Shown here: positions 19,994 to 20,097 of the stretch, one piece after another
Position numbering within the stretch: position 1 is the first letter of the stretch
How the letters are laid out: the number at the start of each line of letters is the position of its first letter
Source of the DNA: Microbacterium sp.
GTDB lineage: Bacteria; Actinomycetota; Actinomycetes; Actinomycetales; Microbacteriaceae
Direction: 5' to 3'
Assembly (NCBI RefSeq): GCF_011620665.1
Contig: NZ_WOYQ01000016.1
Span: forward strand, 1-48,321
DNA: 48,321 bases
The notes under the pieces: model-generated
Told to the model about the DNA's origin: nothing
The model's database searches: none
Seen by the model: only the letters and a program-made list of their open reading frames with translations
Position numbers and translations under genes: made by a program

Positions 19994-20050
19994 AGGGCCA
20001 ACGACGAAGCTCCGCGACGAGGGAGGCCCTAAACCGAGGTCTCGTCGCGG
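19994..20050 (-). promoter_or_regulatory. LEU-element-like pseudoknot in the leuA leader
   Basis: Two interleaved perfect stems are visible on the minus strand. Stem 1 pairs CCGCGACGAG (20050-20041) with CTCGTCGCGG (20021-20012). Its loop contains AGGGCC (20030-20025), which pairs with GGCCCT (19999-19994) downstream to give stem 2, an H-type pseudoknot. A conserved pseudoknot upstream of actinobacterial leuA has been published as the LEU element. Here the 5' arm of stem 1 overlaps codons 12-15 of the leader ORF, right after four Leu codons, so a stalled ribosome would alter it. Confidence 0.75.
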
Positions 20051-20085
20051 CGGCTAAGAAGAAGGAGGATGCCGGTGAAGCGCAT
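20029..20085 (-). CDS. leuL: Leucine leader peptide of leuA (18 residues)
   Basis: This short minus-strand ORF encodes [18 protein letters not shown]. Codons 7-10 are four consecutive Leu codons (CTC CTT CTT CTT), three of them CTT, which is unusual in this GC-rich genome. It ends with TAG at 20029-20031, 68 bases before the leuA ATG. A TAATCT box lies six bases before its ATG, so the leader mRNA probably begins at the start codon. The design fits ribosome-mediated sensing of charged tRNA-Leu. Translation is inferred; the codon run and its position against the pseudoknot are seen directly. Confidence 0.8.
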
Positions 20086-20091
20086 GCAGAA

Positions 20092-20097
20092 AGATTA
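20092..20097 (-). promoter_or_regulatory. -10 box of the leuL-leuA transcript
   Basis: TAATCT on the minus strand, six bases before the leader-peptide ATG at 20085. It sits in the 67-base gap after era, so leuA is transcribed independently of the era operon. No good -35 sequence is present. Confidence 0.6.

Follow-up and report, generated by a model that had tools for sequence, protein, structure and literature searches.

We have found that the LEU element of actinobacterial leuA is quite likely one exchangeable scaffold of the Actinomycetes, composed of a leader ORF at the transcript start, a stem (P1) and a pseudoknot (PK). Its specificity would lie in three to five interchangeable sensor codons, with Leu runs upstream of leuA, leuA paralogues and leuC, and Val/Leu/Ile mixtures upstream of leuB-ilvE. 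If this is true, the branched-chain regulon reuses one RNA part with rewritten codons. The same RNA scaffold carrying different sensor codons before operons of one pathway constitutes a natural experiment, and the match between codons and gene bears on an issue raised in 2005 by the authors who described the element, since they favoured a protein and spoke against a role of the Leu codons.

The element that we analyzed lies upstream of leuA in a 48,321-nt stretch of Microbacterium sp. DNA, hereafter the window (Table 1). Direct reading confirmed the leader ORF with four Leu codons (20067-20056) described in the initial annotation, as well as the perfect 10-bp stem that it had placed after them (10/10 Watson-Crick pairs, 19-nt loop), with a gap of five bases between the Leu run and P1. 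Its further claim, that the stem loop pairs downstream to form a pseudoknot, was borne out by the sequence (6/6 pairs) and gained support from the class-wide permutation test described below. The gene upstream of the leader ends at 20153 and resembles era. A simple scan of positions 19900-20300 revealed no sigma-70 consensus promoter, and no intrinsic terminator with a U run, as expected of a classical transcription attenuator, was found in the same interval (0 terminator-like sites). The plain fold of the leader was not unusual (z -1.42, with 16/200 shuffles equally stable). When the window and six element loci were compared with Rfam at the gathering score, no cis-regulatory family was matched and the matches were tRNAs only; the window holds two tRNA genes, at 7405-7478 and 9228-9300 (-).

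Table 1. Parts of the leuA leader element in the window, with the basis of each assignment
Feature	Position	Strand	Basis or remark
-10-like hexamer TAATCT	20092..20097	-	Ends 6 nt upstream of the leader ATG; leaderless start predicted
Leader ORF, 18 codons, ATG at 20085, stop TAG	20029..20085	-	Sequence
Leader stop TAG	20031-20029	-	Located in the loop of P1, sharing bases with pseudoknot strand 1
Leu codons CTC CTT CTT CTT, proposed as sensors	20056..20067	-	Sequence; codon classes by downstream gene
P1 5' arm CCGCGACGAG	20041..20050	-	Sequence; pair counts in alignments
P1 3' arm CTCGTCGCGG	20012..20021	-	Sequence; pair counts in alignments
Pseudoknot strand 1 AGGGCC, within the P1 loop	20025..20030	-	Sequence; class-wide permutation test
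Pseudoknot strand 2 GGCCCT	19994..19999	-	Sequence; class-wide permutation test
UCCUUC inside the Leu run, able to pair with the candidate Shine-Dalgarno	20061..20066	-	6-nt helix; base stem according to PMC1262725
GAAGGA, candidate leuA Shine-Dalgarno	19976..19981	-	Weak candidate, 15 nt before the ATG; inferred
leuA, 2-isopropylmalate synthase, 586 aa, ATG at 19960	18200..19960	-	TIGR00970, 847.5 bits (cut-off 697.4)

With leuA downstream, a leader ORF containing a Leu run and a two-helix pseudoknot, the window element is an ordinary member of the published LEU kind. That element was defined in 2005 by Seliverstov et al. through the leader ORF, the pseudoknot and a stem joining the Leu run to the Shine-Dalgarno sequence (PMC1262725, as far as its available text goes), and it shares with the window the Leu-run ORF, P1 plus pseudoknot and the position upstream of leuA. 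The initial annotation had therefore named the published element correctly, but it presented as an addition the leader ORF, which is already part of the element in the available text of PMC1262725, and it omitted the base stem (Leu run with leuA Shine-Dalgarno) given there. Two differences from the 2005 description stand out in that text: it prefers a protein ligand for an element with a Leu run, whereas the elements studied here also precede leuC and leuB-ilvE, and those of leuB-ilvE carry Val/Leu/Ile codons instead. The words leuB, leuC and leaderless are absent from the main text of PMC1262725.

Related leaders have been reported in other actinobacteria. The Streptomyces lividans leuA leader peptide LeuL1 (MRFGLLLLSCRGEGL) was reported to be transcribed leaderless and, like the window leader, has no typical intrinsic terminator; in the available text of that work, the leuA leader is the one leader of this element type and no pseudoknot is discussed (PMC8079986). 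We have found a peptide identical to LeuL1 upstream of leuA in locus L150. The leuA leader peptides of Corynebacterium glutamicum and Corynebacterium diphtheriae contain four consecutive Leu codons, as in the window, but the accessible parts of the reports present them as attenuators with no pseudoknot, and for C. diphtheriae no start site could be assigned (PMC4046766, PMC5784534). Likewise, the Corynebacterium ilvB-II motif puts a branched-chain operon under the control of a leader ORF rich in codons for these amino acids; according to the available text of PMC10272879 it uses terminator/antiterminator hairpins, whereas no terminator was found at the window leader.

Conservation was assessed in the window's family, in which leuA was found in 115/120 genomes; 70 of these 115 loci were examined (the 30 best and 40 from further down the list). 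A short ORF with at least three consecutive Leu codons (LLL) was present in 70/70, so the leaders passed the test of Leu-codon conservation on which the initial annotation had staked its reading. The -10-like box, which in the window stands in a position fitting a leaderless ORF, also recurred: with spacings of 5-8 nt and several starts per locus allowed, TANNNT preceded the start codon in 69/70 loci, by 6 nt (58) or 7 nt (11), compared with 5/1625 other ATG/GTG codons in the same upstream regions. The start site itself is predicted, and L009 was the locus without a box in the spacing allowed. The box was preceded by TGN in 62/69 leaders, and GTG was the start codon in 55/69. The end of the Leu run lay 5 nt from P1 in 68/69 leaders, the leader stop codon fell within the P1 loop in all 68 whose P1 was located by script, and the leader start was 105-141 nt from the leuA start (or the start of the leuA match) in 68/69, L055 being the exception with 185 nt. 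Among 61 distinct leaders the last three Leu codons varied at third positions only, a result that is partly by construction as the rows had been chosen for LLL. CTT made up 126/248 of the family leader Leu codons, versus 10.5% in 27 window ORFs, and the last Leu codon was always CTT, a preference that could also reflect a nucleotide constraint. Comparison within the family showed conservation of the codons, of P1 and PK, of the 5-nt distance between Leu run and P1, of the place of the stop codon in the P1 loop and of the promoter geometry.

The distribution of the element was surveyed with a covariance model that includes the sensor codons (R1) and with a broader model that also includes them (R2). 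R1 matched 272/296 genomes of the class Actinomycetes at E 0.05. R2 at E 0.001 matched 14/149 genomes drawn from the phylum, 13 of them class members and one (G508) from outside, a count that gives no class share for the 135 genomes without a match. In one alignment (A4) 4/64 matches were extra weak ones and were dropped. The window's own genome gave two strong matches (E 2e-14 and 1.5e-13, the next being 0.015). The second of these elements (L101:3372-3450 (+), corresponding to C68:7371-7449) has the leader VRIARLLLSGRDEISF and lies upstream of leuC, identified by TIGR00170 (736.4 bits, cut-off 560.25). Two weak matches in the same genome (L193 and L194) resemble coding DNA and were rejected. 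At least two element matches were present in all 14 family genomes of the class search, and leuC elements were confirmed in 11 of these 14, the second matches of G256, G369 and G309 being left out.

In other families the second elements were located upstream of a leuA paralogue or of leuB, often with ilvE next. The leuB reference scored 591.8 with NF002898 (cut-off 393) and 264.5 with the general model TIGR00169, below its cut-off of 353.2, and the ilvE reference scored 418.2 with TIGR01123 (cut-off 250.05). A pattern scan of named genomes returned 11 matches, of which 10 were examined (L186, from a Ruminococcus MAG, was left out); leuB was downstream in the fetched DNA for 7/10, with cases in Jiangella asiatica, three Phytoactinopolyspora species and Actinopolymorpha alba. 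In total, 21 of the 22 leuB elements rest on a leuB match in the locus or in a named contig copy, and the other (L130) was assigned by a small ORF that elsewhere also precedes leuB. The leuB leaders span five families of the class search. Across the class the spacing is looser than the strictly leaderless one of the family: among 102 class-wide elements, TANNNT was found 6-8 nt before the start in 61 (51 leuA, 7 leuC and 3 leuB) and 9-12 nt upstream, leaving a short 5' leader, in 35, while five had no -10-like box and one fell outside the count. For many leuB and streptomycete-type leaders, a few nucleotides of 5' leader are hence predicted.

We have then related the codons of the leader to the gene behind it. 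Downstream genes were assigned by blastp, by the search used to fetch leuA or, for some loci, by eye, in all cases blind to the leader codons, and codon classes were counted in a six-codon window before P1. LLL was present in 111/115 leuA leaders and at least two Val/Ile codons in 0/115, whereas the leuB leaders (for instance MRSVFVLIDCRGEA, MRQVLVLITCRGGA and MQWSVRILSCRDEAR) had LLL in 0/22 and at least two Val/Ile codons in 22/22. The leuC leaders followed leuA, with LLL in 6/7 within the fixed window and one codon off in the remaining one (L108); L102 had LLL plus two Val codons. Both leaders were fetched from 16 of the 22 leuB genomes, and the leuA partner had LLL in 15/16 of them. Val was written GTA in 22/31 cases in the leuB leaders, versus 5.4% in the ORFs of the window, which belong to another organism.

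A model without the codon region (R3) was built because R1 and R2 include the codons, and 57 genomes were searched with it. Of the 20 examined among the matches listed, eight preceded leuB, with LLL in 0/8 and at least one Val/Ile codon in 8/8. LLL was present in 5/6 leaders of leuA or a leuA paralogue, L238 having LLL plus two Val codons and L232 having none. Six matches (E 0.0007 to 0.02) looked like chance matches in coding DNA and were discarded. No other pathway appeared among these 20 when the scaffold was sought with codons for amino acids other than the branched-chain ones. The product of ilvE serves all three branched-chain amino acids, which would explain a shared scaffold with codons differing as the sensed amino acids require. 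The analysis showed that the putative sensor codons change with the downstream gene, and this codon switch is the strongest evidence that progress of the ribosome over the codons may be the signal. As far as our literature search reaches, the leuC and leuB-ilvE forms with operon-matched codons are new; no report of either form was found in the open-licence literature, a body that excludes the comparative study of Lopatovskaya et al. 2010.

We have also examined whether the two helices are supported by comparison. In the family, P1 had 99.8% of cells paired, with three compensatory pairs and seven/ten pairs invariant in 61 distinct sequences; this alignment omits 8/69 leaders with an odd P1, inserts or identical segments. 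In 41 diverse sequences of the class, 99.8% of cells were again paired, with four compensatory pairs, and 0/500 shuffles matched the pairing or the compensatory value. When the 3' side of P1 was slid by -3 columns, the covariation score was almost as high (0.236 versus 0.243), although only 72.9% of cells paired. Four/ten pairs never varied in the 41 sequences. The invariance of the P1 sequence thus exceeds what structure alone needs.

For the pseudoknot, only 66% of cells paired in fixed columns of the family alignment, apparently since the register is shifted or bulged in some leaders. Each loop's pairing with its own tail was compared with its pairing to the tails of others. A first comparison of this type, with 64 family leaders and tails that included the Shine-Dalgarno sequence, was not significant (1444/5000), and the tails were shortened since CCUC in the loop pairs with any GAGG. 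In the later test the tails comprised 28 nt after 3 nt skipped behind P1, near-duplicates were removed, and 40 representatives of 147 elements were used. The 40 included two that do not belong to leu genes; among the 147, L152 and L154 are probably false matches ("other"), and L121, L122 and L142 had been excluded for lack of a P1 in strict form. Pairing with the own tail amounted to -13.46 kcal/mol versus -11.64 for permuted partners, and 1/20000 permutations was as good. The signal came from a minority, the own tail being in the best 5% for 6/40 and in the best 20% for 14/40; that of the window ranked at 5%. Clear rewritten pairs included CCGGGC/GCCCGG (L067), GAGACC/GGTCTC (L069) and, by eye, GAGGGCCAC/GTGGCCCTC (L166). 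Judged from these alignments and permutations, compensatory changes occur in both P1 and PK at the level of the class, in keeping with what the initial annotation had expected of the stems. The class-wide pseudoknot test is new, as far as the literature search reaches.

Concerning the mechanism, we find it rather probable that the leader contains an ORF with a leaderless-type promoter whose Leu run senses charged tRNA-Leu, with P1 and the pseudoknot lying after the sensor codons and ahead of the leuA ribosome-binding site. If leucine were plentiful, the ribosome would pass through the Leu run and leave, the leader would fold, and the Leu run would pair with the Shine-Dalgarno region, giving poor translation of leuA. 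Under leucine shortage, the ribosome would wait in the Leu run and occupy the pairing partner, leaving the Shine-Dalgarno open. The output would be Shine-Dalgarno masking (translation initiation), Rho-dependent termination or both. In 64/69 family leaders the Leu run can form a helix of at least 5 contiguous pairs with the leuA Shine-Dalgarno region, a count that has no shuffled control, and this pairing reached -10.7 kcal/mol versus -5.9 for the control, the 24 nt upstream. The idea that the spelling of the Leu codons favours this pairing was not supported: random synonymous runs gave -10.1 kcal/mol, 44% of them being as good, which points to the pairing as a property of Leu codons and not of their spelling.

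A rough constrained fold, in which the pseudoknot was ignored and a ribosome footprint assumed, was used to estimate the cost of opening the Shine-Dalgarno. In the window this cost was 5.2 kcal/mol for the free leader. With a ribosome on the third Leu codon from the end (early stall) it was 4.8, on the last one 2.6 and at the stop 5.2, and a ribosome on the last Leu codon left P1 unfolded. The means for the 69 family leaders were 5.9 (free), 3.2 (early stall), 5.5 (last Leu) and 5.8 (stop); compared with the stop position, the early stall made opening easier in 54/69 leaders and harder in 8. On these means, the site would be opened by an early stall that leaves P1 intact, but not when the ribosome stalls on the last codon. 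The model thus favoured opening of leuA by starvation in both the window and the family, and the predicted need for P1 unfolding differs between the window leader and the family mean. The initial annotation had proposed that stalling on the Leu codons unfolds P1 and alters access to leuA, which agrees with the window leader in this rough fold and disagrees with the mean of the 69 family leaders. Its observation was confirmed beyond chance, and its interpretation is partly supported overall.

The same codon sensor could act through Rho-dependent transcription termination, with the stalled ribosome or the folded leader changing the access of Rho between leader and gene. The lack of an intrinsic terminator in the window leader would be compatible with this output, and the available text of PMC1262725 suggests Rho for the polycysteine leaders of mycobacteria. 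In 11 leuB leaders the gene starts 349-524 nt after the first base of the element, so simple Shine-Dalgarno masking does not carry over to them, and Rho termination or coupling through a small ORF is to be considered there. The leuA leaders are short, however (105-141 nt in 68/69 family leaders, 185 nt in L055), and as a general account we regard Rho termination as possible but doubtful.

A different type of explanation, the 2005 conclusion, makes the pseudoknot the binding site of a regulatory protein, with orthologues of ML1624 as candidates (PMC1262725, available text), and the leader ORF incidental. The conservation of P1 beyond pairing (4/10 pairs invariant in 41 diverse sequences) is in its favour, as are the Streptomyces coelicolor results cited in that paper, where the effects of leuA leader mutations were not consistent with classical attenuation and Leu-codon mutations had no influence on regulation; both results count against codon sensing. 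On the other hand, the change from Leu runs to Val/Leu/Ile codons according to the operon that follows, with P1 and PK retained, is not predicted by a protein-only model, and we consider this explanation unlikely. We regard as very improbable that the nascent peptide arrests the ribosome through its conserved C-terminal residues (S-C-R-D/G-E): the leader C-terminus is indeed conserved, but these residues are largely encoded by the 5' arm of P1, whose bases are kept for pairing, which explains their conservation. Between codon sensing, which we favour, and a protein ligand, the leuA and leuB leaders of one genome offer a clean test design, as they can be swapped codon for codon.

Several further features were noted around the elements. 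Some leuA paralogues, about 50-56% identical to the window LeuA, carry an element of their own (L149, L225, L232, L242 and others), and in L098 leuA and its element are arranged head to head with leuB-ilvE. At L129:3066-3143 (-) an element with the leader MSWQKLLVTRRSGV precedes a small protein with weak similarity (blastp E 9e-5) to the C-terminal part of LeuA and no Pfam match. Just before leuB, the L162-L180 leuB loci share a conserved small ORF, about 40-50 aa long and with DDN or EDN at its end (MYDLYPDAWGPAAHDPENPRSAENVALALQTALDLRDGGGQRPDDN in L180, for example); the one such ORF compared with Pfam gave no match. In other families the small ORF before leuB ends in MDRRDNGGETGH or similar, and a GCGATCCG motif is present between the pseudoknot and the small ORF in 9/11 leuB leaders.
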